Positions 3,301 through 35,912 of a stretch of 64,000 nt of DNA are shown piece by piece (position 1 is the first letter of the stretch; each line of letters opens with the position of its first letter). Under the pieces are notes generated by a model, which had not been told where the DNA came from, made no database searches, and worked only from the letters and a program-made list of their open reading frames with translations. The position numbers and the translations under genes were made by a program. This stretch comes from Tridacna crocea. Lineage: Eukaryota; Mollusca; Bivalvia; Cardiida; Cardiidae. The DNA lies in NCBI GenBank assembly GCA_943736015.1, contig OX031059.1, positions 59,283,159 to 59,347,158 of the forward strand, written 5' to 3'.

Positions 3301-6300
3301 AACAACACTATTTTAGGCTTACCCAAATTGAAAGCTTTTGCAGACTTCAAAATAAAAGTGACTAAGAATTTGAAATTTGCTTTGTGAAGGGTAGAAAACA
3401 TTGTGGGAAAAGGAGAAAATGCTGGTTACCCACAATGTTTTCTAAAGGCTTCTTTCTCAGGGGGGTCAAAAGTAGGGATTGTGTGGTAATGGGTTAATGT
3501 TCCATAATGTTTTTTGTCTACTGTAGAGTAGAAAACATTGCGGGAGGAGGAGAGAACACTTATGAACACTACATGTACTTTTACCCACATCGTTTTCAGG
3601 GTTGTTAAACTATTGATTGTTGGGTGAAGGGATAATGATCTTCATTCAAAAATACTTCTGAACACATTGTGGGCTGTGGATAAACAGTGGTTTTCATAGC
3701 AAAACAGTTCTTGCTGTTAGCACAGGGGAAAGAACAGAATGAGATCACACAAATACATTATGCTACCCCCAGGATGCAAGGTTTTTTGACTCGCACAAGA
3801 GACTGTCACTTGGAAGTATTTTTCTTTGCAAAAGGTTGCATTAGTTGGAACAAGCACTACCTCATTTTGCTGTTATGTTTTCAATTGTACTTATGTGTTA
3901 AGTATTAGATTCAAGGTGATTATCCATGTTTCACCAGAATGTTTGAAAGATGTCAGCTGCAGATCTTTTTCAGGACTTGTTTGAGGTTAACCCTTTATCA
4001 AACAATCCTGAGTTTTAGCAACACATTTCTGCCATTTCAAAAACAATTTCCAGGGTTTGAAAAACATGCAAATAATTTGAATAGCATTTGCAAAGAAATT
4101 TGATAAAGTTTTTTTTTTTCTATTTTTAGAGTCTGTCAGGAAAGGAATGGTATAAACAGCAAGCAGCAAGAGCAGTCAACCAGGCTATTGGTCGTGTCAT
4201 ACGTCATAAAGATGACTTTGGTGCAATACTACTCTGTGATACAAGGTTAGTTGTTTACGCTTTTCCAAACGACAAAATTTTAGAGTTCTTTAAATTGAAA
4301 GCATTTGCAGGTGATAAATTGTAAAAAAAGAAGCTCAAAAGGTGGAAGTTGTCTTTTATAGGGTAGAAAACATTGCGGGAAAAGGATAAAATGCTGGTTA
4401 CCACGGTATTCAAGGATCATGTGACACTTTTCCAATTTTCCAATTCGACCATATTGATCATTCAACTGCATGTCTATCTTCTGGTAAATAAGAATCATTG
4501 AGGTCTTGTATCTATTCTCTTTTTGACAGGTTCTCTGCCCCAGATGCCATCAAACAGTTACCTGTATGGGTGAGACCACATGTGAACAAATATGAGAACT
4601 TTGGACAAGCGGTAAAGGATACAATGGTTTTCTTCAAAACTGCAGAAAAACTGGTAATAGTTTCAAAGTCTCTCATAGATTTCTATGTATTCATTCCATA
4701 TAAATACCACTTTTCCTGTTGTAGATATTGAAAGTAAAGTTGGAGAGAAACAGTCATTTTTGGTCTTCTTAACCCTTTACCTCATTCTATGGTATCTCTA
4801 ACTGACCCTAAATATCGGCAAGGATGAAGCTGTTTCTTATGTGTATATGACACCTTTTGATAGTGTAGAAAACATTGTGGCAAAAGGTGAAATTGCTCGT
4901 CACGAGCAATTTCACCTTTTGCCACAATGTTTTCCAAAGGCTCCTTCAAGCAATGTGTAGAAATGAGTATCCGTGGAGTAAAGGGTTTTAATATGTGTCA
5001 ACTCTTCTCAGAATGAAGCAAGGTTTATAGCTGACCATATTGAAAGCATTTTCAGTCACAAATAGAATGCAGCTCAAATGTTGATTTTTGTCTGTGAAAG
5101 GGTAGTAAATATTGTGGAAAAAAGGTGTGTTAATCCTTCACCAAATGAAGAAAGATTTGTAACCACCCATATTGAAAGCATTTCAGATAAGAAAGAGATT
5201 GTAGCTCAAATGATGATTTTTGTCTTTGATAGGGTCGAAAACATTGTGAGAGAAGGAGAAAATACTGGTTACCAGCATTTTCTCCTTTCCCCACAATGGT
5301 TTCCAAAGCTTTCTTTTTTAGAGTTGTTAAAAGTTGGGATTATAGTTATGGCAAAGGGTAAAATGCTTTATTTCAAAAATACTTGATGTTCCTTGTATGA
5401 TATGGTTATAAACAATATACATATTTAGTTCTAAGCAGTGAAATCAAGAATTAGGAAATGATGGAAAAAAAAGCATTTTAAATAGAAAGTGACAGAAAAA
5501 CATCACTTTTTTACAAAAATTGGACTGAAGCCATAGTAGCTCTGCTGTTTTTAAAGAAATGTGACATTTCAGCTTTGGTTTTTCTAAACCATCATAATTA
5601 TGCAGCTGTAAATAAACTAAGAATTTTGATTGTTTTTCTTTGCTTACAGATGCCAGCACCTAAACCCAGTAAAAAGGTCACATTGTCCTGCACAGCATCA
5701 GGGGCCGCCTTTATGCCAACACTGTCACGTCAGCAAATCAGCACAGATCAGTTACAACGATCACACTTTGTTGCCAGTCATGTACCAAGTCTAAAGTATC
5801 AAAGTACTTCAGTATTTTTCTTTTACTGTAAAACGTTGTGTATACCACGCAGGCATGTATAACACGCAGGCCTTTTTCAGCATCAGATCCGAGGAAAAAA
5901 GGTTGTTCGGATGTACAACACGCATCAAAAATTGACCAAAATATTGTAACATCTGAAGCTTACGACGCTATCTTGAAAAATTGTAAATGGCAATACTTTA
6001 TCAAAGGGAAACAACCATTTTTAATCAAAGTGGAAATGGTAATGATTTGATGTGTACTCGGGGGATTATAAAAATATGCCAGCTTATGACATGTTGCAAA
6101 TTCACACATTGAACTGACGACCATATCGTAATTAATCTCCTATTTTCTCACCTCCATCGACAAATGTGACAGGTGTGAAATAAACATAGATCTATATGAT
6201 GTAAATTACGGTTTTTGTAAAAAGCAGTGATAAATATACATATTTTTAAATCATTCATTTCTTTCTGTATCATTATTTTACTCTTTAATAATTGTTCAAT

Positions 6301-9300
6301 TTTAGCTATTAACAAAGAATAAAAAAATATGAGACGAATCAGACGATAACAGTAAATCAATATTTATCATTCCGGGGTACGTTCGTCATTGCCAAAATGG
6401 CTGATAGAATCGGGAAATTACGAATCCTAATCCACAAATTAAGAATGTATAAGTACATTTTAACAAAATTAAAACATAACGTTTTTTTATTTAAATCGGT
6501 AAAAGTTGAAATGGGATGATGACGAAAGTTAAGGCTGTGGCGAGAGAACTTTGCCGTTTTGTACCTACGCCCCGCCCCCCACCCACTTTGAACAGGTATA
6601 CGACCGACTTTTAATGAGGAAAAAAAACCATGATTTTGCCTATTGTAGTGTATAACACGCAGTCCCCAGTTTGAAATTATTCAGAGCTGAAAAAATGTGC
6701 GTGTTATACGCACCAAAAAACGGTATGTTTCTTTACCCTGTTAGCACTTTCAAAGTTATATAATTATGTAGTTATCCAGTAAAGATAAAGATCCGGCTGC
6801 ATAAAACATGTGGTTTGGTCTTTGACCTACTCTGTATGGTTTAACTCATTACCACACGAGAAAATTTTAGACTGGTCCAAATTGAAAGCATTTTCAGATG
6901 ACAAAATAAAGGTGACTAAAAAATAGAAAATTGTTCTGGGAAGGGTAGAAAACACTGGGGGGAAAAGGAGCAAATGCTGGTTACCAGCATTTTCTCCTTT
7001 TCCCATAGTGTTTTCAAAAGGTTTCTTTCTCAGGGGCATCAAAGGTAGGGACTGTGTGGTAATGGGTTAATGGGAAATTCTGGCCAAGAGCAACCTTTAA
7101 ATTACAGACATTAAATTTTCAGGTGTTATTTGCTGGACTGAAATACTCTTTTAAGTTTTATTTGAAGATTTAAACCATTACCACACAAAGGTAATGAATA
7201 ATGGAGGTGTTTTGGGTACAATATTTGAGGTTATAGATTTTCTCTATAGACCATGATTTTGGGCGCATATTATACCCCCTGCAAACCAAATGTTTTTAGT
7301 TTAGTTTAAACATATTTTATTCAATATAATATTTACATACATGATACTGTTCTGGTAGGTAAAGTTACGTGAAAAGGATTGGAACGAAAGCTACTAGCTT
7401 ATAAAGTTCCTCTCCTGTTTTTAGGAGTATACTGGAATCAGCCTGTCCGTCTGTGTACAAAATACTAGTCATTTCCTGTTTCTATCAAAGCACTGAAGGG
7501 GGTAGTACGTCACATTCATTGAAAGCTCTAGTTAAAACTGTGTTTCTTAGCCCATTACCAAATGGCAATATTTTAGACTGGTCCAAATTGAAAGCATATG
7601 CAGAAGACAAAATGAAAGTGATTGAAAATTTGAAATTTGTGTTGTGAAGGGCTGAAAAAATTGTGGGAAAAGGAGAAAATGCTGGTTACCAGCATTTTCT
7701 CCTTTTCCCGCAATGTTTTCTTAAGGCTTCTTTCTAAGGGGTGTCAAAAGTAGGGATTGTGTGGTAATGGGTTGAACAATTTAGATAGTATAATATAATA
7801 TAATAATTACATGAACTTATTTTTTTTAATTATTCGGAATTCAATTATGTCTTTTGTTTTTATTAACCTTACAAAACTACAACATTCTATACTGGTCCAG
7901 TTCAAAAGCATCTGCGAACAAATTGAATTTGACTAAGAAACTAAAATTCCTCCTTTGATTGATGGAAAACATAGTGGGAAATGGAGAAAATGCTGGTAAT
8001 TCTCCCACAAAGTTTTCAAAATCTTTCTCTTTTTGGTTTGTTAGAACTGAATTGTTTGATAAAGAGTTAACCCTTTACCACACAATGATGACTTTTAACA
8101 CCTGTGAGGAAGAAGCCTTTTTAAAACATTGTGAGAAAAGGAGAAAATGCTAACTACCATCATTTTCTCCTTTTTCCACAAAGTTTTCTACCCTATCAAA
8201 GCAAAATTGTCAAAGCAAAACTGTCCTCTACAAATGCTTTCAATTTGGATAGGTCTAAAACTTTGCTGTTTGGTAAAAATTTGTCTTGTATCAATTATTT
8301 TACTTCAGATGAAGCAGTCAGCATAAACAAGTTGAAAGAAGACTATAAAGGTGGAAGCACAAGAATGTCAGAGTCTACAGGTGGACTGTTTTCTGCCTTG
8401 GATCATACAGAAGTATGGCATTTATTGTACCATGCAGTAGCAATGGGGGTTTATGGGTCTATGTGATGTACAATGTGTGTGATCACGTATAAATGTATGT
8501 GATTCACATTCAAAATAAAAATATCACATACAATTAATTCCTGTAATATGTACTGGAACATACAAAATCATTAAAATTTAATAAGTTTCAGAAATTTCCT
8601 TAAAGCATACTAATTACAATTACTTCTTGGACAGGTTTTCAGAATCCAAAATTACAATGCTTGCCATCCATCATCGTATGTAATTACCCAATATTGAATT
8701 CATGGGCCATAGACTCCCTAACTCATTGCTGAATATCTTTTGACGTCATCGTTTTTGCAAAGGATGTTCGGCCAATCTCAGCAGGTTCAGTCTTTTAACT
8801 CTTTACCAAACAACAAAATTTTGGATTTGTCCAAATTAAAAGGATTTGCAGACGACAAAAGAAATGTGAGTGGAATTTTGAAGATTGATTTGTGAAGGGT
8901 AGAAAACATTGTGGAAAAAGGAGAAAATACTGGTTACCAGCATTATCTCCTTTTCCCACAATGTTTTCTAAAGACTTTCTCTTTTTCTTTGTGTGGTAAT
9001 GGGTTAATATTAAAGATAGGGGCTGTACTTCTTTATTGGATTTTGGTAGAATTTTGTTTTGTATTCATATGGTATAAAAAGGTTAAATTCGTTTTCAAAC
9101 AATATAATATTAGACATTTCCAAATTGAAAGTATTTGCAGACAACGAAATAAGTGTGACTCAAAAATTAAAACTTGACTTAACTCTGTACCAAATGAGAA
9201 AATTTTAGACTGGTCCAAATTGAAAGCATTTGCAGACGACAAAATAAAGGTGACTGAAAAATTGAAATTTGTTCTGGGAAGGGTAGAAAATACTGTGGGA

Positions 9301-12300
9301 AAAGGAGAAAATGCTGGTTACCAGCATTTTCTCCTTTTCCGGCAGTGTTTTCAAAAGGCTTCTTTCTCTGGGGCGACAAAGGTAGGGATTATGTGGTAAT
9401 GGGTTAGATGAATAGAAAACATCGTGGGAAAAGGAGCAAATGCTGTTTACCGGCAATTTCTCTTTTTCCCCAAAATGTTTTCGGATGGTTTCTTACTATG
9501 GGATGTAAAAACCAGGGATTGTTTGTGAAAGGGTTAGTGTATCTCCATGGTGCATAATCAAGTAAGTTGTAAATATGGATCCATGAAATCAATTTTTGTC
9601 TCACTGAGTTATGAGGTAGACTGATCCTTTCACATGCAGGAAAATGACCAATATCTAAAGGGCTTGATCCAGGTCAGCCTGGCTAACTTGGTTGGCTACT
9701 TTTTGAATTCATTAAGCCCCCTTCTTCACAGAGGATTGCTCATGTACAAATATGTACCTTGTCGTCCTTTTTTTTCCAGAGACGGTTTGACTTATCAGAT
9801 ACACAGGTAAGTTATTTTAATTCTTTACCAAATGACAAAGTCTGAGACTGGTCCATATTGAAAGCATTTGTAGAGGAGAAAATGAATGTGATTAAAAAAT
9901 TATACTTTGTTCAGGGAAAGCTGGGAAAAATTGTCTGATACCAACATTTTCTTCTTTTCCCGCAATGTTTTCTAAAGGCTTCTTTCTCAAGAGTCATGAA
10001 AACCCAGGATTGTTTGGTAAAGGGTTTACCTATTTTGAAAAATTTTGATAGTTGAAATAAAATGTGTAAGCAATATTTGCAAAGAGCTTTCCACAGTAAG
10101 TTTTTACTAAACAACCCATATTATAGACTTGTCCAAATTCATAGCATTTGCACATGACAAATGAAATGTTTCTCAGTGATGACATCTGTTTTTGATAGGA
10201 TAAATACAATCTGGGAAAAGAGAAAATGCTGGGTAGCAGCTTTTTATCTTTTACCAACAATGTTTTGGAAAGCCTTTTTGGGTATTGTCAGGTAAAGGGT
10301 TAAATGCCTGTCTGTATTGGTATAATTTATTTCATATCTCAATCTCTTAGAAGTGATTTGGAAGGTAGGGGGAGAAATCTTTTTTCAAAGAAATAAAATA
10401 TGTAAATTTGTACTGCGAATTGTTAAACATCCAAAGGGCAAAGGTTTTGTTTTAGCCCTGGTCACCTACTGTCTCTGTCTGTCTGTCCATCTTGTCCGTG
10501 TGCAATTTCTTGTGCACACAAATCCTTACACAGTCTTCACTGGGATAGGTTTAAACTTACCACGATGAATCTTCAAAATGTGTAGTTGTGAATATGACTT
10601 TCTGAAAAAATGGATATCTAAAGGCGTTCTAGATTTTAAACCATTTTGCTGACAAGCCCGTTTGGGTTTATATGCGTTGCGAGCTCTTATTGTTTATGTT
10701 TAGAACAAAGTCTATGAAAATGATACTAACAGTTATTCTTTGCTTTTCAGATTCCCTCATACCAGTCTGGGCAAACAAGTGATTTAAGCATGAGAAAGCC
10801 AGTAAATAAGAAGAAAATTGTGATAAAGGTAAGCTTTGTCCATTTGTAATTTCTTTTCTTAACCCTTTACCTGATATGCCAATTTGAGGCTCTTATATTT
10901 CAGTAGCAAGTAAAGATATGATGACAAAATTATGGACAAATGAGGATTCAAATATCTGATTGAGTGGAAAATATTGTGGGAAAAGGAGAAATTGCTCGTT
11001 ATGAGCAATTTCTACTTTTCTCACAATGTTTTCAAAAGCTTTCTGTTGTTGATACGTCAAAATGAGTATCTGTAGAGTAAAGGGTTAACACTTCACCAAC
11101 CAATCCTTTGAACCATCGAATCTGACGTAGCGAGCTTTTGAAAACAAAAAGGAAAATGATGGTTTCCAGCACTTTGTGTGTTTTTATTTGTCCAAAGGGA
11201 TGTATCATATTTTAGCCCCGGACGTCCATCTGTCGTTCAGCGATTTCATGGACAATCTCCTTCAGGCATATAATTATGGGCTGCTTTGCAAAGCTCTTGT
11301 TACAGTGTTTTCTCCCCTTACCCTCTGCCTAACAATCCTGAGTTTTCTTGACCCCGAGAAAGAGGGCTATTGGAAAACTTTGTGGGAAAAGGAGAAAATG
11401 CTGGTAATCCTTCCCAAAACAAATTTCAGTTTGGGTCCCATTTGTATTGTCATCTGCAAGTGCTTTGAATTGTACAAGTTTTGAATTTTGTGGTTTGGTT
11501 AAGAGTTAAGAAGAAGTACAATCGTTTGAGATACATTTATATTGCCAATCTGAAAGTCTGTATTGTATAGACAAGTCAAAAGTTTGGTTGTTTTTGAAAG
11601 GGTTAAATAAAGAGTTATTGTTTGTAGACCCATAAACTTAACACTTTTTTTTACTTCTTTGGAGACAGCCTAGATTGCTGAACCCTTTCCCAAACAACAA
11701 AATTTTTGACAAAACCGAATTGAGATGGTCTTCAGAACAGAAATTAGATGTACCAGTCATTATGATTTCTGTGCACATGTTTGTTAGGGCAGAAAACTGT
11801 GGGAAAAGGAGAAAATGCTGGTTACCAGCATTTTCTCTTTTCTCCTTTTCCCACCAGAATTTCAAAAGGACTCTTCTTGGTTCATAAAAACCAGGGAGAG
11901 GGTTAACTCTTTACCACACAATCCCGACTTTTAATGACCCTGAAGAGGAAGGCATTTGAAAACATCATGGGAAAAGGAGAAAATGCTGGTAACCAGCATT
12001 TTCTCCTTTTCCCACAATGTTTTCCACCCTGCTAGAAACTCATTTCAATCTTTGAATTACGTTTATTTTGTGGTCTGCAAGTGCTTTCAATTTGGAACAG
12101 TCTAAAATTATGTCGTATGGTAAAGAGTTAGCAGAGCTACAGACATTTTCAATCTAGATAAAAGACCAAGATAATTACTGTTGAAAGGCTGCTTTTGACT
12201 GTAGTGTTTCAGCAAAGTGATCAGCGAAGGTAAAAAATCAGACTACATTGTATTGTGGATTCTGATCTTGACCTACACTGGCCACAAAGGCAAAAATAGT

Positions 12301-15300: not shown

Positions 15301-18300
15301 ACCATCATTTTCTCCTGTTCCCACAATGCTTTCTGCCCTATCGAAGAAAAATTGCACCATTTAAGCCACACTGAAATAGCCATCTACAAATGCTTTCAAT
15401 TTGGAAAAGGCTAAAATTTCGTTGACTGGTAAAGGGTTAATGGTTTAACCCTTTCCCAAACGACTATTCCAAATTGAAAGAGTTTGCAGACGACAATGTT
15501 AACTTTCATAACGATGGCAGAAAATTATCCGAAGGGGCAGAAAACACTGTGAGAAAAGGAGAAATTGCTCGTTATGAGCAATTTCTCTTTTTCCCACAGT
15601 GTTTTCAAAAGGTTTGTACAGCAGACATGTAAAAACAAGGGCTTGTTTGGGAAAGGGTTAATGTTATGTTTAAATTCTGTGTATGCTTGAAAGGAAAGAA
15701 GAGCCAGACTTTGTATAATTTTTTAAACAGGTTAAGAGTACCCTGTCTTCAGATTCCTACAAAAGGTTTTCTAAGGCTTTGTTTGACTACAAGAAAACAG
15801 AGGAGATTGTGAAAGTGTGTGAAGTTCTGGCAGATTTATTTACAGAGAATGAGAATAGAAAACATTTATTTGCTAGTAAGTAACTTTAGATGGAATTGTA
15901 TTTTTTACAATCCAGAACTTTAGTAACACATCAAAATAAGGCTTTTGAAAACATTGTTGGAAAGAGAGTAAATGCTGATAACCACCATTTTCCTCTCAAC
16001 CCATGGTGTTTTTAGCTCACCTGAGCACGAAGTGCTCATGGTGAGCTATTGTGATCGTGCTGTGTTGTCATGCGTTGTCTGTCGTCAACTTTTTACCTTG
16101 TGTACGCTCTAGAGGCCACATTTTCAGTGCGATACTCATGAAAGTTGGTCAGGATATTTGCCTCGATGAAATCTCGGACGAGTTTGAAAATGGGTCATGT
16201 GGTGTCAAAAACTATGTCAAATCTTGGAAAAACCTTGTGTATGCTCTAGAGGCCACATTTTCAGTCGGATACTCATGAAAGTTGGTCAGGATGATTGTCT
16301 GGATGATATCTCGGACGACTTAGAAAATGGGTGATGTGAGGTCAAAAACTAGGTCAGTAGGTGAAATTTTAGAAAAATCTTGTGTACGCTCTAGAGTCTA
16401 CATTTTCAGTCGGATACTCATGAAAGTTGGTCAGGATGTTTGTCTTGATGATATCTCAGATGAGTTCGAAAATGGGTCACATGGGGACAAAAACTAGGTC
16501 ACTAGGTCAAATTTTAGAAAAACCTTGTGTACGCTCTAGAGGCTACATTTTCAGTCGGATACTCATGAAAGTTGGTCAGGATGTTTGCCTGGATGATATC
16601 TTGGAAAGGTTAGAAAATTGGTCATATGGGGTCAAAAACTAGGTCAAATCTTAGAAAAACCTTGTGTACGCTCTAGAGGCCACATTTTCAGTCCAAAACT
16701 CTGGAAAGTTGGTCAGGATATTTGCCTGTATGATATCTTGGACGAGTTAGAAAATGGGTCATGTAGAGTCAAAAACTAGGTCACCAGGTCAAATGTTAGA
16801 AAAACCTTTTGTAGGCTCTGGAGGCCACATTTTCAGTCAAAAACTCTTGTAAGTTGGTCAGAATGTTTGCCTTGATGATATATTAGACAAGTTTGAAAAT
16901 GGGTCATTGGGAGATAAAAACTAGGTCACCAGGTCAAATCTTAGAAAAATCTTGTGTATGCTCTAGATGCCACATTTTCAATCCAACACTCTTGAAAATT
17001 AGTCAGAATGTTTGCCTTTATAATTTCTTGGATGAATTTGAAAATGGGTCATGTTGGGTCAAAAACTGGGTCAATAGGTCAAATGTTATAAACACCTTTT
17101 GTATGCACTGAAGGACACATTTTCAGTCTGATACTCCTGAAACTTGTTCATAATATTTGTCCTGGTGATACCTTGAATGAATTTGAAAATGGGTCATGTG
17201 GACTCAAAAACTAGGTCAATGGGTCAAATATTAGAAAAACCTTGTGTACACTCTAGAGGCTACATTTTCTGCCTGATACTCTTCAGACTTGGTCAGAATA
17301 GACCTTTGGCTGGCAATAGACCCTGCTCCCCCCTCAGGGGGAATTTTGTACACCATGATTTTCTGAAACTACATTATATAAGCTGCAAAATGAGACATGT
17401 TAGCCCTCTGGCGGCTGGGGCGTGTGCATGTAACATTAATGTAATCTACGTAACCCTCAAAATTACATAAAATTCCACGTATAACATACTTAGAAGTCAT
17501 TTTTTATAGTTAGTTGTAGATTTTTACCGGTATGAGCAGGTTCTGCTACCTACATGTATTCAGTAAGTCTTAAGTGCTTGCTCGAATTATGGTCATGTAA
17601 CTGTAAGATCATGTCACAGTACTGTAACATACGTTACCACGGGTTGCTTAGGCTATAATTTAACATTTGACGACAAACTATGAGCAGATTCGGGTCGGAA
17701 TCAAATTCTTATTAAAGATTGTCAAATTGAGAAGAACTGAATGACACCGCAGACTGTAAAAATCTTTTTCAGATATGTGTGGATTATCTACCAAGCACTC
17801 CCCCCCCCCCCGCGATATTTAAGTACGTTTTTGGGTGAAAGCCAAATCTCAAGCAAGGCTAAAGAGCCGCCAACAACTTTTTTTTTCTTTGTTTCAAATA
17901 CTGATCGGAAACAAATGACAGATGATTAGTATGTAATACGTAATTGATGCTCAACACAAGAAAAATGCCTTAATTACATAGCCCTATAGGAAATGCGAAG
18001 GTTCAGGCGAGCCTGCGCATCCGCGCAGTCTCACCAGAACCTTTCTTTTTCGCTCAGGTAATCTATGGGCCTAGTAGAAGCTTCAACCTAAGAAAACAAA
18101 ACCCTGTAGCCCCGCTAAGGGCTGGGCATGCGCGCTTAAAGATTGCAAAGTTCTACTGAGGGTCTTAAGGGTCTTTTTCTTGCGTTGCGCATCTTGTTTT
18201 CTGTGTCGCTGATACACCACGTAGAGCAAGTCTTGAAAGCATATATTTGTGTTCAAACTGAATAGCTACTTGTACCTTGTCATATTTTGGACCACAATCA

Positions 18301-27300: not shown

Positions 27301-28807
27301 AAATTGTGGGAAAAGGAGTCAATACTAGTAACCAGCATTTCCTCCTTTTCCAAAATGTTAGATATCCTACAGAAAACAAATTCCGTAATTTTAGCCACAT
27401 ATGAATTTTTGTCTGAATATGCTTTCAGTTTTGAAAAAACTGGAATAAAATTTGGTCATGTGGTAAATGCTTAAAGTTACTTTATTCTTTAGCAGACAAA
27501 GTGCGAGTGTGATTGAAAAACATGCAGATATTAAATTTAGCATTGCTCAAGCTTACCTATTAATTGTGTAAGTATTTGTACTGTATCCTACAGAAAAACT
27601 CCAAGGAGACCAGTAAGTCCAACTGTGCTACTGGCCAAGTGTTACAACAGAATGAAAACTCAAAAAATGTTGAAACTGTCTTAAAATCTACCACTTCATT
27701 GAACAACAGGGACAATATAGTTGACTGTGAAAAACGTCTTCAACAACAACATACCTCAGGTACTTTACTTCTGTATAAATTTTCACCACCTAATGAATAT
27801 CCTATAAAGATGTATTGCCGCAGACAAAGTTTGAAAATAAAACAAGAGGAGAAATTGGTTGTAGCATTCATTTTATAAAAAAGAAGGTTTACAATTTACT
27901 ACGCAATCCAAGTATTTATGACTCAGAGGTAGAAGCCTTTTGAAAATATTGTGGAAAAAGAAGAAAATGCTAGTAACCAGCATTTACTTCTTTTTACACA
28001 ATGTTTTCAACTTTATCTATTTCAAATTTCATTTTTTAGACACCTATAAATTGTGGGTTTAAGTCTACATTTTTTGTGAGGTATTAAAGAGCTTATGGTC
28101 ACAAGTTGACCTTTTAATTGGAATAGAGCACCAAAAATTCTGAAACTCCCTAACTGGGTTTTGAATATTAAGATTTTTAAAAAATCACTCTGTATTCAGG
28201 AGCTCAAGACAAAGTTCTCAGGGTCCATATTCACCAATGATTCTCTAGAACATTCTTTGTCTTATTCTTCAAGATTTTTTAACTGAAAGTAACAGAACAT
28301 CTGATTGGCTAAACCAAATGGTTTAGCCAATCAGAAGTTGTGTTACTTTCAAAATCCAGATTTATATCAAGAATATTCTCAAGAAAGGTTGGTGAATACA
28401 GCTCCTGCTAGACCCATTGCTATTGAAACTGCTGGAAGGTGATAAATTAGATATGGCCCAATATTATCGGGTAATCTGCATTTTCTCCATTCTAACAATG
28501 TTTGCCCTATTTCTAGGGATGGTATAAACCTAGGATAGAAAATATAGAAGATTAGAATAGAGATGGCTGTTACAAGCAGGTGATTATTGATAAAATATTG
28601 ACTCTATTTACAGGTGTGAAATGTTGCATGTGCAGAAATGCTGCTAAAATTCCCTTCAGAGCTCTCTGTGATCATATTTGCTGTATGGAGTGCTGGAGAA
28701 AAGTGTTTGAGACAGATAAACTGTGTCCAGGCTGTGGTCAGGGAGTTCGTCGACGGCATCTTATACAGATATTCTACAAAATGGAAGAGGGGCATCTGCA
28801 GTCTTGA
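239..28807 (+). CDS. RTEL1: RTEL1 helicase, 3' half of the gene (14 exons, gene starts left of window)
   Basis: RTEL1 is a nuclear XPD-family 5'-3' DNA helicase that unwinds D-loops, T-loops and G-quadruplexes at telomeres and forks (family knowledge). The coding path joins 239-316, 2273-2413, 4130-4245, 4530-4653, 5650-5803, 8309-8412, 9780-9806, 10751-10828, 13656-13760, 15731-15875, 24702-24836, 26872-26927, 27594-27759 and 28614-28807. All introns are GT-AG and every junction keeps frame, giving 540 residues plus stop. In order the sequence shows motif V ([10 protein letters not shown]), motif VI (QAIGRVIRH), the WVRPHV region, the conserved HVPSLK and [10 protein letters not shown] segments, a KKKIVIK basic stretch, one harmonin-like domain and a C4C4 RING. 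The iron-sulphur and ATP-binding halves must lie upstream of the window. Vertebrate RTEL1 has two harmonin-like domains; only one is seen here. Introns are rich in MITEs. Identification is very secure; the weakest joins are the donor at 5804 and the 27-nt exon. Confidence 0.96.
346..563 (+). mobile_element. TTAA-hairpin MITE
   Basis: Complete copy; the hairpin reads GACGCTGGTAACCAGCATTT, with one arm change (GACG for AAATG). It lies 29 bp after an RTEL1 donor. Confidence 0.85.
708..936 (-). mobile_element. TTAA-hairpin MITE
   Basis: Complete 229-bp copy with intact palindrome except for one base (CCTACAATG). Both TTAA ends are present. Confidence 0.88.
1008..1180 (+). mobile_element. TTAA-hairpin MITE, right hairpin arm deleted
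   Basis: The left end and left arm are present. The sequence then jumps from the palindrome centre (GTTAACT) to the AAATTTTTGAGTCAC-like internal part; the right end is eroded. Confidence 0.7.
1652..1722. repeat. Degenerate GACAGTGTAGATC hairpin
   Basis: A worn member of the small hairpin family whose better copies are at 42972, 54126 and 63177. The arms ACAGTGTAGATCAAAGATCA and GATCTAGA-like are only partly complementary. Confidence 0.45.
1801..2029 (+). mobile_element. TTAA-hairpin MITE
   Basis: Complete 229-bp copy with a CACTGTGGG arm variant matched by CCCACAGTG in the other arm. Its right TTAA (2026-2029) is also the left end of the next copy. Confidence 0.9.
2026..2229 (-). mobile_element. 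TTAA-hairpin MITE, left hairpin arm deleted
   Basis: Shares its TTAA with the previous copy. The left arm is missing: GGGTAGAA runs straight into CTGGTAACCAGCATTTTCTC. Confidence 0.8.
2273..2413 (+). CDS. RTEL1: RTEL1 exon: helicase motif V, second part
   Basis: 141 nt, 47 codons, phase 0 at both ends. It reads [20 protein letters not shown], then PYPPYMDP and a LKMQYLDEM segment, all hallmarks of RTEL1. Acceptor is CCTAAAG and donor is GTAAGA. A MITE copy ends only 43 bp upstream of the acceptor. Confidence 0.96.
2729..2872. repeat. 144-bp palindrome in an RTEL1 intron
   Basis: The arms start GTTGTACTGTCAGGTGGCAG and end CTGCCACCTGACCGTACAAC. They run about 55-60 bases with few mismatches to a centre near 2800 (TTGCCCTGAGCCGAAGGCGA). 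The sequence is GC-richer than its flanks and is probably a foldback element. No copy elsewhere in the window. Confidence 0.8.
2880..3219. repeat. Short inverted pair flanking 310 bp
   Basis: ATACTGCAAAG near 2884 and CTTTGCAGTAT near 3203 are exact inverted copies. The segment between, ending in AACCAATCAGATCACG, has no gene. It may be the second half of a composite foldback element with the palindrome at 2729. Confidence 0.4.
3287..3497 (-). mobile_element. TTAA-hairpin MITE, right arm mostly deleted
   Basis: Both ends are present. The left arm ends GCTGGTTACC and is followed directly by CACAATGTTTTC, so most of the right arm is lost. Confidence 0.82.
3498..3986 (+). other. RTEL1 intron, degenerate MITE half then no feature
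   Basis: 3498-3634 is a worn MITE half (GAAAACATTGCGGGAGGAGG and a late GGGTGAAGGGATAA). From 3635 to 3986 I see no exon, RNA or repeat structure. Confidence 0.5.
3987..4040 (+). mobile_element. TTAA-hairpin MITE fragment (left end)
   Basis: TTAACCCTTTATCAAACAAT followed by CCTGAGTTTTAGC, then family similarity stops. Confidence 0.6.
4130..4245 (+). CDS. RTEL1: RTEL1 exon: helicase motif VI
   Basis: 116 nt, entering in phase 0 and leaving in phase 2. It encodes [20 protein letters not shown] and [26 protein letters not shown] is motif VI with its arginine finger residues intact. The acceptor is a long T tract ending TTTTTAG. The donor GTTAGT lies 6 bp before the fragment of a MITE. Confidence 0.96.
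4252..4403 (-). mobile_element. TTAA-hairpin MITE, left half
   Basis: TTTACGCTTTTCCAAACGAC through the left arm to GCTGGTTACC; the right half is replaced by unrelated sequence. Starts 7 bp after an RTEL1 donor. Confidence 0.7.
4530..4653 (+). CDS. RTEL1: RTEL1 exon: end of helicase core
   Basis: 124 nt; its first base completes the arginine codon AG|G. It encodes [18 protein letters not shown], then [17 protein letters not shown] and KTAEKL. The WVRPHV and YENFG stretches are typical of RTEL1 just after motif VI. Acceptor TTTTTGACAG, donor GTAATA, phase 0 exit. Confidence 0.95.
4769..4990 (+). mobile_element. TTAA-hairpin MITE, subfamily B (covarying arms)
   Basis: The arms read GTGGCAAAAGGTGAAATTGC and GCAATTTCACCTTTTGCCAC, perfectly complementary to each other and different from the main family. 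The centre is TCGTCACGA. The left flank inside the element (CTCATTCTATGGTATCTCTA) is also distinct. Confidence 0.85.
5002..5128 (-). mobile_element. TTAA-hairpin MITE fragment (left half)
   Basis: CCATATTGAAAGCATTTTCAG to GTAAATATTGTGGAAAAAAG; abuts the next copy. Confidence 0.6.
5130..5362 (-). mobile_element. TTAA-hairpin MITE
   Basis: Near-complete; the hairpin centre is ACTGGTTACCAG and the right arm has CTTTCCCC for CTTTTCCC. Confidence 0.8.
5650..5803 (+). CDS. RTEL1: RTEL1 exon: post-helicase linker with HVPSLK
   Basis: Starts in phase 0 after GCTTACAG with MPAPKPSKK and runs to HVPSLKYQ. The donor is chosen at GTACTT (5804), giving phase 1, because the next exon needs two bases to complete a codon. 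The other nearby GT, at 5796, would shift the frame into a TGA. A TIR element begins 22 bp after this donor. Confidence 0.85.
5825..6725. mobile_element. About 900-bp TIR element with repeated TATAACACGCA
   Basis: The left end reads CTGTAAAACGTTGTGTATAC and the right end is its imperfect inverse (GCGTGTTATACGCACC...AACGG). TA sits at both outer edges, which would fit a TA target. The motif GTATAACACGCA or close variants occurs at 5837-5868, 5919, 6650 and 6698. There is no long ORF, so it is probably non-autonomous. It lies 22 bp past the donor of the HVPSLK exon. Confidence 0.6.
6841..7070 (-). mobile_element. TTAA-hairpin MITE
   Basis: Complete 230-bp copy. The arms contain CACTGGGGGGAAAAGGAG and CTCCTTTTCCCATAGTG, slightly diverged. 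Confidence 0.88.
7172..7545 (+). other. RTEL1 intron, little structure
   Basis: A MITE end fragment (TAAACCATTACCACACAAAGG) at 7172, then nothing recognisable up to the next copy. Confidence 0.45.
7546..7775 (-). mobile_element. TTAA-hairpin MITE
   Basis: Complete, with both arms intact except one base; the right end is GGGTTGA in place of GGGTTAA. Confidence 0.87.
7863..8070 (-). mobile_element. TTAA-hairpin MITE, hairpin eroded
   Basis: Right arm shortened (GCTGGTAATTCTCCCACAAAG). Shares the TTAA at 8067-8070 with the next copy. Confidence 0.8.
8067..8278 (+). mobile_element. TTAA-hairpin MITE next to an RTEL1 acceptor
   Basis: Complete except the last bases (GTTTGGTAAAA). Ends about 30 bp before the exon at 8309. 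Confidence 0.85.
8309..8412 (+). CDS. RTEL1: RTEL1 exon: [10 protein letters not shown] segment
   Basis: 104 nt; AT completes an asparagine codon with the preceding A. It encodes [18 protein letters not shown] then [16 protein letters not shown]. The last ten residues correspond to a short conserved segment found in vertebrate RTEL1 at the same place. The right end of a MITE copy lies about 30 bp before the acceptor TTTTACTTCAG. Donor GTATGG, phase 0. Confidence 0.9.
8413..8794 (+). other. RTEL1 intron, no feature seen
   Basis: AT-rich sequence with repeated GTATGTGAT-like words at 8470-8525 and no recognisable element. Confidence 0.45.
8795..9007 (-). mobile_element. TTAA-hairpin MITE
   Basis: Complete ends. 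The hairpin has ACTGGTTACCAG at its centre and a short deletion right of the palindrome. Confidence 0.85.
9082..9178 (-). mobile_element. TTAA-hairpin MITE fragment
   Basis: Left internal part only (CCAAATTGAAAGTATTTGCA), ending where the next copy begins. Confidence 0.6.
9179..9406 (-). mobile_element. TTAA-hairpin MITE
   Basis: Complete 228-bp copy; the palindrome has one changed base (CCGGCAGTG). Confidence 0.9.
9407..9536 (-). mobile_element. TTAA-hairpin MITE fragment (hairpin and right end)
   Basis: From GAATAGAAAACATCGTGGG to AAAGGGTTAG; the left third is missing. Confidence 0.68.
9640..9760. repeat. Degenerate repeat shared with 59700-59800
   Basis: TGACCAATATCTAAAGGG to AAGCCCCCTTCTTCACAGAG; the end closely matches AAGCCCCCTTTTCACAGAGC at 59788. 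Confidence 0.45.
9780..9806 (+). CDS. RTEL1: RTEL1 27-nt microexon (RRFDLSDTQ)
   Basis: A 27-nt exon, phase 0 on both sides, encoding RRFDLSDTQ. It has a strong pyrimidine-rich acceptor (CCTTTTTTTTTCCAG) and a consensus donor CAG|GTAAGT. Because it is in frame with both neighbours it could be constitutive or skipped. A MITE copy starts only 10 bp after the donor. Confidence 0.7.
9817..10027 (-). mobile_element. TTAA-hairpin MITE, 10 bp after the microexon donor
   Basis: Ends present; the left hairpin arm is degraded (GAAAAATTGTCTGATACC). Confidence 0.75.
10098..10303 (-). mobile_element. TTAA-hairpin MITE, diverged
   Basis: Clear left block (GACTTGTCCAAATTCATAGC) and right end (GGTAAAGGGTTAA); the hairpin is worn. 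Confidence 0.7.
10450..10694 (+). mobile_element. Helentron-like element remnant
   Basis: Starts TTTTAGCCCTGGTCACCTAC, has CTGTCTGTCTGTCCATC typical of these arrays and ends GCGAGCTCTTATTGTTT. It resembles the GCTCTTGTT ends of elements at 11210, 12417, 16012 and 23215 with a small change. Confidence 0.55.
10751..10828 (+). CDS. RTEL1: RTEL1 exon: basic KKKIVIK stretch
   Basis: 78 nt, 26 codons, phase 0 at both ends, encoding [20 protein letters not shown] and KKIVIK. It matches the basic stretch that precedes the first harmonin-like domain in vertebrate RTEL1. Acceptor TTGCTTTTCAG, donor GTAAGC. It could act as a nuclear localisation signal (inference). Confidence 0.88.
10859..11088. mobile_element. 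TTAA-hairpin MITE, subfamily B arms
   Basis: The hairpin uses GGAGAAATTGCTCGTTATGA and its near-complement. Its right TTAA (11085-11088) is shared with the next copy. Confidence 0.82.
11085..11321 (+). mobile_element. TTAA-hairpin MITE split by a short Helentron-like insert
   Basis: The left half runs TTAACACTTCACCAACCAAT to about 11209 and resumes as ACAGTGTTTTCTCCCC at 11302. The insert is the separate 92-bp element. The left half is diverged. Confidence 0.6.
11210..11301 (+). mobile_element. 92-bp Helentron-like mini element
   Basis: Starts TTTTAGCCCCGGACGTCCAT and ends TTTGCAAAGCTCTTGTT, so it carries the same 3' terminus as the larger arrays but has no tandem repeats. It sits inside a MITE. 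Confidence 0.6.
11317..11509 (+). mobile_element. TTAA-hairpin MITE, right arm deleted
   Basis: CTGCCTAACAATCCTGAG through GCTGGTAATCCTTCCC to GGTTAAGAGTTAA; the right hairpin arm is lost. Confidence 0.75.
11679..11906 (-). mobile_element. TTAA-hairpin MITE
   Basis: Hairpin present, with a small internal duplication in the right arm (TCTCTTTTCTCC). The right TTAA at 11903-11906 is shared with the next copy. Confidence 0.82.
11903..12130 (+). mobile_element. TTAA-hairpin MITE
   Basis: Complete 228 bp with a well-kept palindrome (ATCATGGG on the left against CCCACAATG on the right). Confidence 0.88.
12131..12416 (+). other. RTEL1 intron, one degenerate hairpin
   Basis: Around 12235-12290 are worn GATCAGACT and TGATCTTGACCTACACTGGC arms of the small GACAGTGTAGATC family; otherwise nothing is seen. 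Confidence 0.4.
12417..13646 (+). mobile_element. Helentron-like element with about 160-bp tandem units
   Basis: The 5' part is TTTTTATTCTCCCCGAAGGG with a CCGTCCGTCTGTCCGTCCG tract. The body consists of diverged units with the landmark TGTCATGGAAAAAGGGGGC at 12611, 12773, 12932 and, worn, at 13135, 13273 and 13437. The 3' end is TTCGGGGAGCATAACCTG then GATGGCTCTTGTT. It has no transposase gene. The architecture fits non-autonomous Helentrons (HINE type). Its 3' end touches the RTEL1 acceptor at 13655. Confidence 0.75.
13656..13760 (+). CDS. RTEL1: RTEL1 exon: start of harmonin-like domain
   Basis: 105 nt, 35 codons, phase 0, encoding [19 protein letters not shown] to AENYIAE. The acceptor TTTTTTAACAG directly abuts the 3' end of a Helentron-like element (about 12417-13646), so the pyrimidine tract lies at the element boundary. 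Donor GTATAT. Confidence 0.87.
13771..14002 (+). mobile_element. TTAA-hairpin MITE, old and diverged
   Basis: CTTTACCAAACAGTCGAAAG to GATAAATGGTAAAC; the arms have many mismatches. Confidence 0.6.
14003..14760 (+). other. RTEL1 intron, only weak MITE traces
   Basis: A worn hairpin segment near 14385-14500 (CAACATTTTCTTCTTTTCCC) and a C9 run at 14612. No exon or RNA is seen. Confidence 0.45.
14761..15027 (+). mobile_element. tRNA-derived SINE, full length
   Basis: The head GCCCGCCCAGGTAGCTCAGT has an A box (TAGCTCAGTGGT, 14772-14783) and a B-box-like GATTTTGATACCC near 14813. The middle (GTGGCTTTGGAAAGAAAGTT to AGAAAGCCAGGAAACACATG) is a conserved central domain shared with the SINEs at 32531 and 53640. 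The tail is GCATTAAACCCCAATGCAAC. This fits the bivalve Meta-SINE group (family knowledge). Confidence 0.82.
15218..15440 (+). mobile_element. TTAA-hairpin MITE
   Basis: Complete; arms diverged (AGAAGAATATGCTGATAACC). Confidence 0.82.
15445..15661 (-). mobile_element. TTAA-hairpin MITE, subfamily B arms
   Basis: Arms GGAGAAATTGCTCGTTATGA and GAGCAATTTCTCTTTTTCCC. Starts 4 bp after the preceding copy. Confidence 0.85.
15731..15875 (+). CDS. RTEL1: RTEL1 exon: core of harmonin-like domain
   Basis: 145 nt, entering in phase 0 and leaving in phase 1. It encodes [20 protein letters not shown] and a helix-rich stretch ending [10 protein letters not shown]. The [12 protein letters not shown] and LADLFTE segments are the alpha-helical core of the harmonin-like domain, which in vertebrate RTEL1 binds partners such as RPA and SLX4-type factors. 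Donor GTAAGT. Confidence 0.94.
16098..17299 (+). repeat. Tandem array, about 145-bp units
   Basis: The landmark CTTGTGTACGCTCTAGAGGC recurs at about 16098, 16234, 16380, 16524, 16661, 16806, 16951, 17096 and 17241. Spacing is 144-146 in most units and 136-137 in two, where one of two neighbouring AGGTCA words is missing. Diverged units resume after 19805. Confidence 0.85.
17300..19799. mobile_element. 2.5-kb non-autonomous TIR DNA transposon with 5-bp TSD
   Basis: Exactly 2,500 bp bounded by AGACC...GGTCT and flanked by AGAAT on both sides (17295-17299 and 19800-19804). Removing the element and one AGAAT restores the array word GGTCAGAATGTTTG. The terminal inverted repeats are about 155 bp, sharing CCCCCCTCAGGGGGAATTTT and TGTTAGCCCTCTG. 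There is no long ORF. The superfamily is not recognised; a 5-bp target duplication is uncommon among animal cut-and-paste families. Confidence 0.85.
19805..20089 (+). repeat. Remainder of the 145-bp array and element 3' end
   Basis: Two diverged units (GTAGAGGCCACATTTTCAGT at about 19900) followed by the CTCTTGTT terminus. Confidence 0.75.
20188..21640 (+). other. RTEL1 intron with unclassified repeats
   Basis: Near 20518 there is TAGGCCAGGGAATCCCTCTC, a CAGGGAATCCC/GGGATTCCCTTG hairpin that looks like the 5' end of another array element. Around 21048 and 21153 the word TGGCCCGTGTTATGTT repeats about 105 bp apart, with GTCGGCCCCTGGAG and TTGGCCCCTGGAG. No gene is seen. Confidence 0.45.
21641..21975 (+). 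repeat. Two-unit tandem element
   Basis: TCCGGTCCATAACTTCTTCA at 21669 and GTCCGAACCATAACTCCTAC at 21806 begin two units of about 137 bp. It is bracketed by GGGCTTGTGTG and GGGCTTGACACAAGTTGTTC, and has a build like the Helentron-like arrays. Confidence 0.5.
21976..23074 (+). other. RTEL1 intron, no feature seen
   Basis: AT-rich sequence with no exon, RNA or clear repeat. The most structured word is a GAATTCCAGGGGCTTAGTGG stretch at 22671. Confidence 0.4.
23075..24678 (-). mobile_element. TTAA-hairpin MITE split by a second Helentron-like element
   Basis: Left part 23075-23214 ends inside the right hairpin arm (CAGCATTTTCTCCTT). Right part 24613-24678 resumes CCACGATGTTTTC to AAAGGTTAA. Joining them restores CTCC-T-rich-CCAC. 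Confidence 0.82.
23215..24612 (+). mobile_element. Helentron-like element with exact 156-bp units
   Basis: The 5' end is TTTATACGCCCGTCAAAGAC with a GGGCGGGCGGGCGGC run. The 3' end has a CCCCAGCTTTACAACTTGGGG hairpin, AGACGGGCGTATC (inverse of the 5' GATACGCCCGTC-like start) and then TTTGCCGCTCTTGTT. The landmark TTTGTCCGGAGCATATCTCC falls at about 23285, 23441, 23597, 23753, 23909, 24065, 24221 and 24377, each 156 bp apart. Confidence 0.8.
24702..24836 (+). CDS. RTEL1: RTEL1 exon: end of harmonin-like domain
   Basis: 135 nt after an 8.8-kb intron. It encodes [20 protein letters not shown] followed by [11 protein letters not shown]. The [10 protein letters not shown] stretch is the signature of RTEL1 harmonin-like domains. 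Acceptor ATTCTTTCAG, donor GTAAGT, leaving in phase 1. Confidence 0.95.
25111..25285 (+). repeat. Direct tandem duplication, about 88-bp unit
   Basis: GTTCCTCATGTACTTGTAGG to CTATTCTGGAATGTGC is repeated at 25200 with about 94 percent identity. It lies in an RTEL1 intron and is not coding. Confidence 0.8.
25286..26139 (+). other. RTEL1 intron, no clear feature
   Basis: Contains words such as GTGTTTGGAGTAGTGTAAGG related to the duplication upstream; no exon is seen. Confidence 0.4.
26140..26368 (-). mobile_element. TTAA-hairpin MITE
   Basis: Complete 229-bp copy with TTAA at both ends and a nearly perfect palindrome. Confidence 0.9.
26609..26832 (+). mobile_element. TTAA-hairpin MITE, diverged
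   Basis: TTAACCCTGCACTACACTGT to GATAAAAAGTAA; the right arm is heavily altered. Ends 39 bp before an RTEL1 acceptor. Confidence 0.7.
26872..26927 (+). CDS. RTEL1: RTEL1 exon: short polar linker
   Basis: 56 nt, the first two bases completing a serine codon. It encodes [19 protein letters not shown]. Acceptor TTCCCACAG, donor GTAAGC, phase 0. The residues are polar and unstructured-looking, so the call rests on splice sites, frame and position between two secure exons. Confidence 0.8.
26960..27160 (+). mobile_element. TTAA-hairpin MITE, very old
   Basis: GCGAGGAAAAAGGCTTTTAAAAACATTGCAG-like segment (26994 on) and GTCTTTTTCCCTCAATGTTT. No ends remain. Confidence 0.45.
27247..27474 (+). mobile_element. 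TTAA-hairpin MITE
   Basis: TTAACCCTTCACATTTATG to GTGGTAAATGCTTAA, 228 bp. Arms partly changed (AGTCAATACTAGTAACC). Confidence 0.8.
27594..27759 (+). CDS. RTEL1: RTEL1 exon: polar linker before the RING
   Basis: 166 nt, entering in phase 0 and leaving in phase 1. It encodes a Lys/Asn/Gln-rich linker ([15 protein letters not shown] to KRLQQQHTS). No PIP box or second harmonin-like domain is seen. Acceptor TATCCTACAG, donor GTACTT. The frame joins cleanly to the RING exon through a glycine codon. Confidence 0.84.
27892..28062 (+). mobile_element. TTAA-hairpin MITE, right third lost
   Basis: TTTACTACGCAATCC, then AGAAAATGCTAGTAACCAGC and its arm. No right end. Confidence 0.65.
28222..28407. 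mobile_element. Palindromic MITE carrying GATTGGCTAAACCA
   Basis: The arms start GGTCCATATTCACCAATGAT and end GGTTGGTGAATACAGCTCC. The inner arms CTGATTGGCTAAACCAAATG and TGGTTTAGCCAATCAGAAGT form a tight palindrome at 28301-28335. A related copy lies at 52232. Confidence 0.75.
28614..28807 (+). CDS. RTEL1: RTEL1 last exon: C4C4 RING and stop
   Basis: 194 nt ending in TGA. Eight cysteines in CxxC pairs make a C4C4 RING: CCMC near the start, then CDHICC, MEC and LCPGC, followed by [18 protein letters not shown] and stop. Vertebrate RTEL1 long isoforms end in the same kind of RING followed by a short hydrophobic tail. Acceptor CTCTATTTACAG. Confidence 0.95.
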
Positions 28808-29128: not shown

Positions 29129-29355
29129 GATCTCTTTACCACATCACAAAAAGGACACTTGTATTAATTGAAGGCATTTATGGACGACAACCTAAATGTG
29201 GCTCAAATGATGGTGTCTGTCTTTAGTAGGGTAGAAAACATTGTGGTTAAAGGAGAAAATGCTGATAACCAGCATTTTCTCCTTTAACCACAATGTTTTC
29301 AAAAGGCTTCTTTCTTGGGGTTGTTAAACCTTAAGATTGTGTGATGAAGAGTTAA
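29129..29355 (-). mobile_element. TTAA-hairpin MITE with covarying GTGGTTAAAG arms
   Basis: Left arm GTGGTTAAAGGAGAAAATGC and right arm GCATTTTCTCCTTTAACCAC are exact complements although both differ from the family (GGGAAAA). Confidence 0.88.
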
Positions 29356-31506: not shown

Positions 31507-31521
31507 AGCGTAGATCCATTT

Positions 31522-32997: not shown

Positions 32998-33224
32998 AAT
33001 TCTTTACCTAACTACGAATTTTTAGACTAATCCAAAGAATTTGCATACGACGAAATACACGTGACTCACATATTGAAACTTATTTTAGAATGGGAAGAAA
33101 ACATTGTGGGAAATAGAGAAAATGCTGGTTACCAGCATTTTCTCCATTTCCCACAATGTTTTCAGTAGGCTTTTTCTTCCAAGATCGATTTCAAGAAACT
33201 TGTGATAGTGTGGTAAAGGGTTTA
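32998..33224 (-). mobile_element. TTAA-hairpin MITE
   Basis: Arms GTGGGAAATAGAGAAAATGC and GCATTTTCTCCATTTCCCAC; the A-for-A change is paired at one position and one mismatch remains. Confidence 0.85.
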
Positions 33225-34580: not shown

Positions 34581-34846
34581 GCAACCTTAAACTATAATAA
34601 AAGTATGTCTGGTAGAGCATGTTTTACGATAATGAAGATTTGAGAGTGGGTAAAGCTATGTGATATATCACGATAATTCTATCCTTATCACGCATTTCTA
34701 GCTGAAGAAGAATTTATTCCAGATTAGAGTAATCTGTCAAATGGTGCTTAATTTGTAGATTTCTAGGCGATAAAAGCCATCCGAACCCCTTTTATCCGTC
34801 TTGCACGCCGTCTGCATGTCTCGTTTGGTCGCAGCTGACAAGCCCC

Positions 34847-35037
34847 TCAACCTTTTACCTCACAACCCCGACTTTCAACGACCCTGATAAGCCTTTTGAA
34901 AACATTGTGGGACAAGTAGAAAATGCTGATAACCAACATTTTCTCCTTTTCTCACAAAGTTTACTACTGCCCTTTTGTCGTCTGCAAATGCTTTCAATTT
35001 GGACAAAATTGAAATTCTGTCGTCTTGTAAAGGGTTG
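34847..35037 (+). mobile_element. TTAA-hairpin MITE
   Basis: AACCTTTTACCTCACAACCC to TCTTGTAAAGGGTTG; internal deletion right of the hairpin. Confidence 0.8.
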
Positions 35038-35051
35038 ACCTGCTATGTAAC

Positions 35052-35275
35052 TTAACACAGTACCAAACGACTATATTTTAGGCTTGTCCGAATTGAAAGC
35101 ATTTGCAGACGACAAAATAAAAGTGACTGAAAATTTGAAATTTGTTTTGTGGAGGGTAGAAAACATTGTGGGAAAAGGAGAAAATGCTACCAGCATTTTC
35201 TCCTTTTCCCACAATGTTTTTAAAGGTTTCTTTCTCAGGGGCGTCAAAAGTAGGGATTGTGTGGTAATGGGTTAA
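35052..35275 (-). mobile_element. TTAA-hairpin MITE
   Basis: Complete ends; the palindrome centre is shortened to AAATGCTACCAGCATTT. Confidence 0.87.
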
Positions 35276-35403
35276 ATGAAACCCTCTTTGTTTTAAAAAT
35301 CACAAATAATCATGCTCCTATTTCAAAGTTATCTGTTGGGGTGACAATGCCCCATTCGGACAGTTTAGATAAAAAATCGGACTGCATATTATGTGATATG
35401 ATA

Positions 35404-35631
35404 TTAACTCATTACCAAATGACAAAATTTAGACTGGTCCAAATTGAAAGCATTTGCAGACGACAAAATAAAGGTGAATGAAAAATTGGAATTTGTCCTT
35501 GGAAGTGTAGAAAATACTGTGGGAAAAGGAGAAAATGCTGGTTACCAGCATGTTCTCCTTTTCCCGCAGTGTTTTCAAAAGGCTTCTTTCTCAGGGCCGT
35601 CAAAAGTAGGGATTGTGTGGTAATGGGTTAA
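35404..35631 (-). mobile_element. TTAA-hairpin MITE
   Basis: Complete 228-bp copy with an almost perfect palindrome. Confidence 0.9.
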
Positions 35632-35680
35632 TCTACGCTATCCACAAAAGGTCCTTGGATCGTGCCTTTTAGGCTAAGGG

Positions 35681-35912
35681 TTAACCCTTTACGCCATAAG
35701 GCATTTCTATCGTATCTGTAATTGACCCTAAATAGCAGCAAAGATGAAGCCTTTTCTTTTCTTATGTGTACATAACACCTTTTCATAGTGTAGAAAACAG
35801 TGGCAAAAGGTGAAATTGCCCGTCACGAGCAATTTCACCTTTTGCCACAATGTTTTCCAAAGGCTCCTACAAACAAAGCTTAGAAATGAATATCTATGGA
35901 GTAAAGGGTTAA
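35681..35912 (+). mobile_element. TTAA-hairpin MITE, subfamily B (covarying arms)
   Basis: Same arm set as the copy at 4769 (AAAAGGTGAAATTGC and GCAATTTCACCTTTT) and the same internal flank (GTATCTGTAATTGACCC). Confidence 0.86.

Follow-up and report, generated by a model that had tools for sequence, protein, structure and literature searches.

The 64,000-nucleotide stretch of the Tridacna crocea genome analysed here (contig OX031059.1; called the window) carries copies of a miniature inverted-repeat transposable element (MITE) with an internal palindrome, in which bases that face each other in the two arms are found changed together. The best explanation for the paired changes that are scattered over individual copies is probably quasi-palindrome correction by template switching, a known mechanism: a point change in one arm would sometimes be carried over to the facing position in the other arm. 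The original prediction for this DNA had left the choice between such copying from arm to arm and selection of the folded form. Copying is supported by our data, though mostly not through the copies that were cited for it, since most of these carry palindrome types (A2 and C, see below) that are inherited founder states.

Complementary double changes at partner positions

Double changes were counted genome-wide in a 35-base core that otherwise matched the consensus; the intact core occurs 166,719 times. Letter states were taken from the first 100 places listed for each pattern, which stand in contig order and are not a random sample, and those at pair 6/38 were counted by eye. Pair 6/38 is changed on both sides in 652 copies, compared with 40 at the non-partner positions 6/32. 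Offset 6 alone is changed in 4013 copies, so that independence predicts about 97 doubles at 6/38, about 41 of them complementary, if right-only changes are assumed to be as frequent as left-only ones. The first 100 doubles at this pair were T/A (49), G/C (31), C/G (4) and non-complementary (16), giving 84 complementary states; the first 100 single changes at offset 6 were T (54), G (34) and C (12).

A similar picture was obtained at pair 10/34 with 407 doubles (A/T 38, T/A 22, C/G 16 and non-complementary 24 in the first 100), for which the non-partner positions 10/36 served as control (201 doubles; A/T 40, T/A 2, C/G 3 and other 55 in the first 100). Scaled to the totals, partner and control gave 90 and 4 for T/A, 65 and 6 for C/G, 155 and 80 for A/T, and 98 and 111 for non-complementary states. 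At this G-C pair, complementary transversions therefore lie about 11- and 22-fold over the control, and non-complementary doubles show no increase. Pair 18/26, near the centre, shows 125 doubles, of which 79 in the first 100 were complementary (C/G 40, A/T 36, G/C 3, non-complementary 21), a count that stands without a non-partner control. All three complementary states are present at each of the three pairs.

Quasi-palindrome correction places the complement at the partner position, and our counts agree with this: doubles are more frequent at partner than at non-partner positions at two pairs, and complementary states are in the majority at the third. The enrichment follows complementarity, includes transversions and yields all three states per pair, and is therefore as templated copying from arm to arm would give it. 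It is from these double counts that we infer the copying itself. Neighbouring bases are also found changed in pairs, with TT/AA and TG/CA at positions 13-14 and CA/TG at 8-9, beside half-paired states. TT/AA occurs in full, with at most one mismatch in a 45-base core, at three places in the genome: on contig C15, in the window copy at 29132 and on contig C5. The other matches are half-paired.

Centre base, probable mechanism and estimated rate of correction

The single base between the arms is also changed more often than comparable bases. Among cores with 0-1 mismatches, 10 of 91 copies have T in place of the centre A, and 5 of 1820 of the other A/T sites of the core are changed in the same way. 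With 2-4 mismatches the values are 9 of 67 and 40 of 1340, and with at least 5 mismatches 11 of 64 and 127 of 1280. Centre T is scattered on a tree of the copies (12 changes, 13.4 with shuffled labels) and present in 4 of the 24 paired copies described below. As the centre consists of one base, an inversion and a plain A-to-T change look alike in any single copy; across copies, the frequent change may represent inversion.

These observations suggest the following mechanism. Replication would stall at the hairpin, and the polymerase would briefly use the other arm as template, which is the template-switch mutation known as quasi-palindrome correction. Such correction would repeat itself in separate insertions; in mobile lineages, it would have left paired states that whole subfamilies (A2, B and C) then inherited. 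The paired state of each scattered copy would then have arisen in that copy, and the subfamily states would have arisen by the same copying.

The same paired substitutions would result if mismatches were repaired in an extruded cruciform or hairpin, or if one arm were altered by gene conversion from the other. We regard these processes, in place of template switching, as unlikely. Arms of 33 bp are short for conversion based on recombination. The frequent centre change, if it is an inversion, would fit intermolecular template switching rather than mismatch repair; the excerpted text of PMC8604942 describes inversion of the spacer together with homogenisation of the arms for template switching between inverted-repeat arms. 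Most likely, the copying is done by a polymerase that switches template.

At pair 6/38, about 507 excess complementary pairs stand against about 8000 single-arm changes (left measured, right assumed equal), so that about 6% of the changed pairs carry the change in both arms. If back-correction to the old base is equally frequent, about 11% of the single-arm changes at this pair would have been resolved. As a rough estimate, the rate of correction per mismatch would then be of the order of the substitution rate. We put forward, as a proposal that is nearly evenly balanced between being right and wrong, that mutation alone produces covariation at about ten times chance in these decayed repeats, and that the same neutral copying gave rise to A2, B and C, its rate, counted per mismatch, being of the order of point substitution.

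Inherited and possibly recurrent paired states

Four types of palindrome can be distinguished: A, which is the consensus; A2, with CACTG/CAGTG; B, which is A2 with two more paired changes; and C, with four paired changes and mostly G at the centre. The nearest neighbour by flanking sequence is of the same type for 17 of 20 A2, 6 of 7 B and 8 of 8 C copies. On a tree built without the palindrome columns, A2 needs 7 changes, compared with 19.6 for shuffled labels. The paired states of A2, B and C are inherited founder states. Among the copies cited in the original prediction are those that it placed at 4769, 35681, 1801, 9179 and 59811. Because these carry the C or the A2 palindrome, their paired changes are most likely inherited.

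To this, the paired states at 6/38 can be compared. We fetched 26 loci with such states, of which 24 are labelled (13 T/A, 7 G/C and 4 C/G) and two, L044 and L056, are unlabelled. Flank distances were obtained for the 19 of the 24 with enough flank columns (10 T/A, 5 G/C, 4 C/G). Outside the palindrome, the T/A copies resemble each other no more than random copies with an intact core do (0.90 of random sets were as close or closer), and the C/G copies are likewise unclustered (0.145 of random sets). The tree has 133 rows and excludes the palindrome columns, copies with few flank columns and loci L064 to L066. On it, 11 T/A rows (10 fetched, 1 from the window) need 11 changes (shuffled mean 10.7), 4 C/G rows need 4 and 5 G/C rows need 4. 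For T/A and C/G we thus observe an absence of clustering, with A2 as positive control; this falls short of formal proof. In addition, T/A was found in three exact A2 57-mers, two of which have the A2-typical flank C at column 103. The states are evenly spread over the contigs at 6/38 (p 0.40) and at 10/34 (p 0.96), judged from the first 100 places.

The original prediction had named, as a finding that would speak against it, that all paired changes go back to two or three founder events with no new paired changes within subfamilies. We looked for this pattern and found another one, with three complementary states at each of three pairs, a paired state inside the A2 clade as well, and TT/AA at three places in the genome.

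Evidence against correction in individual copies and alternative explanations

Several observations weigh against the view that individual copies were corrected separately. The first group concerns the counts. Non-complementary doubles at 6/38 scale to about 104, compared with 56 under independence. This excess of about 1.9-fold implies that mutation load varies among copies, which brings the complementary enrichment nearer to 7-fold than to 13-fold. At 10/34, the 11- and 22-fold values depend on control figures for T/A and C/G at 10/36 that come from 2 and 3 of 100. The count at 18/26 lacks a non-partner control, and flanks were read at 6/38 only, not at 18/26 or 10/34. Choosing cores with few mismatches inflates the centre contrast (10 of 91 against 5 of 1820), and the other two classes give smaller contrasts in the same direction.

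The second group concerns descent. The G/C set is closer in its flanks than random sets (0.0045), and two of its members, L052 and L055, belong to one lineage. The tree is star-like, and approximately unbiased (AU) tests fail to reject a single clade for T/A (p 0.24), C/G (p 0.073) or G/C (p 0.60); a tree that keeps G/C together is even better by 9.9 log units. T/A in exact A2 57-mers amounts to 3 cases, compared with about 29 predicted from the share of A2 (4 of 44 local intact cores). A younger age would explain this shortage, and inheritance of most T/A copies would also explain it. Finally, the states at 18/26 are uneven over the contigs (p 0.007 with all three states, 0.049 when C/G is set against A/T; first 100 places), and some copies with changes at this pair may therefore be inherited or locally spread.

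These points of descent are compatible with founder inheritance only, in which every paired state goes back to one event in a mobile copy and was then carried along by transposition. This holds for A2, B and C, as judged by flank neighbours and by the clustering of A2 on the tree. As an account of all paired changes it is inadequate for the remainder, and we consider it rather improbable. Three states at three arbitrary pairs would ask for up to nine separate paired founders, and those at 6/38 would be otherwise consensus-like. T/A at 6/38 is unclustered and present in A2 palindromes, and TT/AA is found at three places with at most one mismatch.

The third group concerns the arms themselves, which diverge more slowly than the flanks. 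Divergence from the consensus is 11% in the arms, 25-26% in the flanks and 16-19% at the element ends, and the drop starts at the edge of the palindrome. When near relatives are picked by one half of the flank columns, their arms differ by 0.032 and their flanks by 0.070. By base class, the arms of near relatives change at about 0.3-0.7 of the flank rate (1.4 to 3.5 times slower), and neutral correction alone would not slow divergence. This split-column comparison replaced a nearest-neighbour comparison, whose near-equal arm and flank rates in close pairs were biased because the neighbours had been chosen on the same columns. The slow arms could stem from selection on mobile lineages, from conversion by other copies or from misaligned flanks.

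Slow arms whose divergence drops from the palindrome edge are also what selection for the folded form would give, if only paired copies were mobilised or kept and second changes that restore pairing were favoured; the element ends are conserved as well, and piggyBac-type transposases bind short palindromes near the ends, according to the excerpt of PMC11707139. As the cause of the paired changes, we hold such selection to be improbable, slightly more so than founder inheritance. Pairs are broken in 165 of 178 local copies, and many copies are diverged or truncated, so that their preservation one by one is hardly possible. Selective compensation would need amplification and hence clustering, and T/A and C/G at 6/38 show none. 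Selection of the fold is not needed for the scattered paired changes, whereas in mobile lineages it may have acted.

The claim that the paired changes keep the palindromes perfect was not confirmed: among the 67-bp palindromes that are ungapped in the profile alignment, full pairing is seen in only 13 of 178 in all local samples and in 2 of 35 in the window. The mean number of broken pairs per copy is 4.1, compared with 5.2 when the arms of the 178 palindromes are redealt among copies. In a local permutation with 238 of 356 matches (those left out were too gapped or were repeat copies from the tandem array L011 described below), scored against the four subfamily consensuses, 136 pair cells were changed on both sides, compared with 119 expected (reached by 22 of 1000 shuffles), and 77 doubles were complementary, compared with 54.6 expected (reached by 0 of 1000 shuffles). 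This local excess is real but small, because old copies yield transition pairs by chance, and most of the locally visible complementary doubles are chance events. Coincidence of frequent transitions in old copies as a general explanation, although it accounts for 54.6 of these 77 doubles and although A/T doubles are also common at the non-partner control, is very improbable, as it cannot yield 652 doubles against 40 or the transversion pairs.

Structure, abundance and copies of the element

The palindrome is an internal 67-bp inverted repeat, with two 33-bp arms and a one-base centre, of a MITE with a consensus length of 229 bp. The consensus has TTAA at both ends and short terminal repeats, and its ends, CCCTTTACCACACAAT and CTCTTTACCAAACGAC, match at 12 of 16 positions as judged by eye. 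It thus shows the features by which MITEs are recognised, being short, high in copy number and bordered by terminal inverted repeats and TTAA. A single strand of the copy at 1856-1922 is predicted to fold into one hairpin (-38 kcal/mol, z -13.8). The window contains 79 copies, which make up 21% of its bases. Matches to the motif with up to one mismatch number 82 there, where 0.72 were expected, which excludes chance for the motif. The genome (1.05 Gb, 31 contigs) contains 747,851 exact 14-mers of the motif, compared with 11 for the reversed control. Over 25 sampled stretches of 10 kb, 267 copies account for 46,729 of 250,000 bases (18.7%), which extrapolates to about 1.1 million copies genome-wide. 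The matched length has a median of 210 of 229 and a lower quarter of 132 or less, hence many insertions are diverged or truncated. Joined palindrome pairs of about 430 bp in the first inverted-repeat scan can be two head-to-head elements, such as 1801-2028 and 2027-2229.

With respect to the family, the TTAA at the consensus ends agrees with the target site of the piggyBac superfamily. Kolobok also uses TTAA, so that this site is not decisive for piggyBac. MITEs of the piggyBac type are short, with TTAA target sites, short terminal repeats and an inner palindrome, and the same features are found here. The piggyBac-type transposase domain PF13843 (DDE_Tnp_1_7) has 118 matches in the genome, many with open frames and often on contig C18. 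Around the four best transposases, only matches to the MITE ends with 3 mismatches of 14 were found, and an autonomous partner with matching ends was not identified in the vicinity of these four. At locus L035, a transposase gene is flanked by an inward-facing pair of MITE-end-like sites, each with 3 mismatches of 14.

The copies of the window that bear on the paired changes are listed in Table 1. The arm sequences quoted in the original prediction do exist in the window. Its positions mostly proved to be element starts (1801, 9180, 29132 and 59814 in our model) and not positions of the palindromes. The two copies with GGCAAAAGGTG are present, with cores at 4879-4923 and 35802-35846, and their model starts of 4854 and 35780 lie 85-99 bases after the places given for them; the core with GGTTAAAGG was located at 29245-29289.

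Table 1. MITE copies and palindromes in the window
Feature	Position	Strand	Details
Full-length MITE, A2 subfamily	1801..2028	+	Profile match and pairing count; 33/33 palindrome pairs formed
67-bp palindrome of the 1801 copy	1856..1922	.	33-bp arms, 1-base centre; folds as a single hairpin
C-subfamily copy	4854..4987	-	Palindrome ~4868-4934, GGCAAAAGGTGAAATTGC arms, 33/33 pairs; founder state
A2 copy (CACTG/CAGTG)	9180..9406	-	3 broken pairs; founder state
B-subfamily copy	10860..11088	-	Pairs 25/41 and 30/36 changed; founder state
B-subfamily copy	15446..15661	-	Founder state
Copy with two paired transitions	27895..28056	+	A13/T53 and A19/T47; could be chance
Copy with paired dinucleotide TT/AA	29132..29355	-	Palindrome positions 13-14/52-53, core 29245-29289, 1 broken pair, centre T; no large founder family
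Copy with recurrent paired transversion	32999..33222	-	T17/A49, core 33108-33152
C-subfamily palindrome copy	35780..35912	-	Core 35802-35846, 31 pairs readable, 1 broken; founder state
B-subfamily copy	57002..57228	+	Founder state
A2 copy (CACTG/CAGTG)	59814..60041	-	3 broken pairs, centre T for A; founder state

Some of the sampled MITE copies lie in tandem arrays. Locus L011 (C1:25000000-25009999) consists of tandem units of about 1.67 kb, each carrying the same MITE copy, six per 10 kb. At L032 (C9:35000000-35009999), copies whose flank and arm columns are identical follow each other at intervals of about 920 bases, which suggests another MITE-bearing array. The window itself has tandem arrays at 16095-17296 (units of about 145 bp) and 23285-24546 (units of about 156 bp). 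Exon-like stretches at about 231-315 and 2270-2412 resemble an RTEL1-type helicase by eye.

Comparison with known systems

Covariation is standard evidence for a selected structure of a nucleic acid. Here, it is strong in mostly decayed copies and best explained by a mutation process. The mechanism is already known; its scale is unusual, and so is its occurrence in repeats of which most are decayed. Among the matches listed in a literature search of titles and abstract openings, there was no report of arm-to-arm correction in a MITE family. If our reading is true, a million near-identical palindromes form a natural assay of covariation without selection. Paired copies run into the hundreds at two of the three pairs, and the third still yields 125 doubles. 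An assembly alone could therefore serve to measure how fast and in which direction template switching proceeds in a eukaryote germ line, how long its tracts are and which bases it prefers. In great-ape genomes, many quasi-palindrome conversions were classed as non-significant, single events changing few bases (PMC7954356, in the excerpt at hand); a million replicas bypass this limit of few bases per event.

Compared with the end palindromes of piggyBac elements, given as 14-19 bp in the excerpt of PMC11707139, the MITE palindrome is long with 67 bp. The process resembles the quasi-palindrome correction of bacteria and yeast (PMC7202029, PMC8604942), where one arm is copied and the repeat becomes more perfect; in those systems, the spacer is inverted along with it and the same event can recur independently. 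In the portions of these papers that we draw on, the cases are reporters or single genes with few events, whereas here about a million replicas (by extrapolation) lie in one eukaryote genome. As in template switching at RNA hairpins (PMC8794818), one copying event explains compensatory changes, in place of two mutations and selection. That work, as excerpted, deals with functional RNA genes, calls the role in maintenance less clear and the evidence circumstantial; our case concerns short and mostly decayed transposon copies. Finally, paired substitutions also keep long repeats matched in the mitochondrial palindromes of nematomorphs, for which template switching is one proposed mechanism (PMC6649704, excerpt). 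Nearly all of the long repeats described there are perfect. Most palindromes of the MITE are imperfect, and correction would therefore lag behind mutation.

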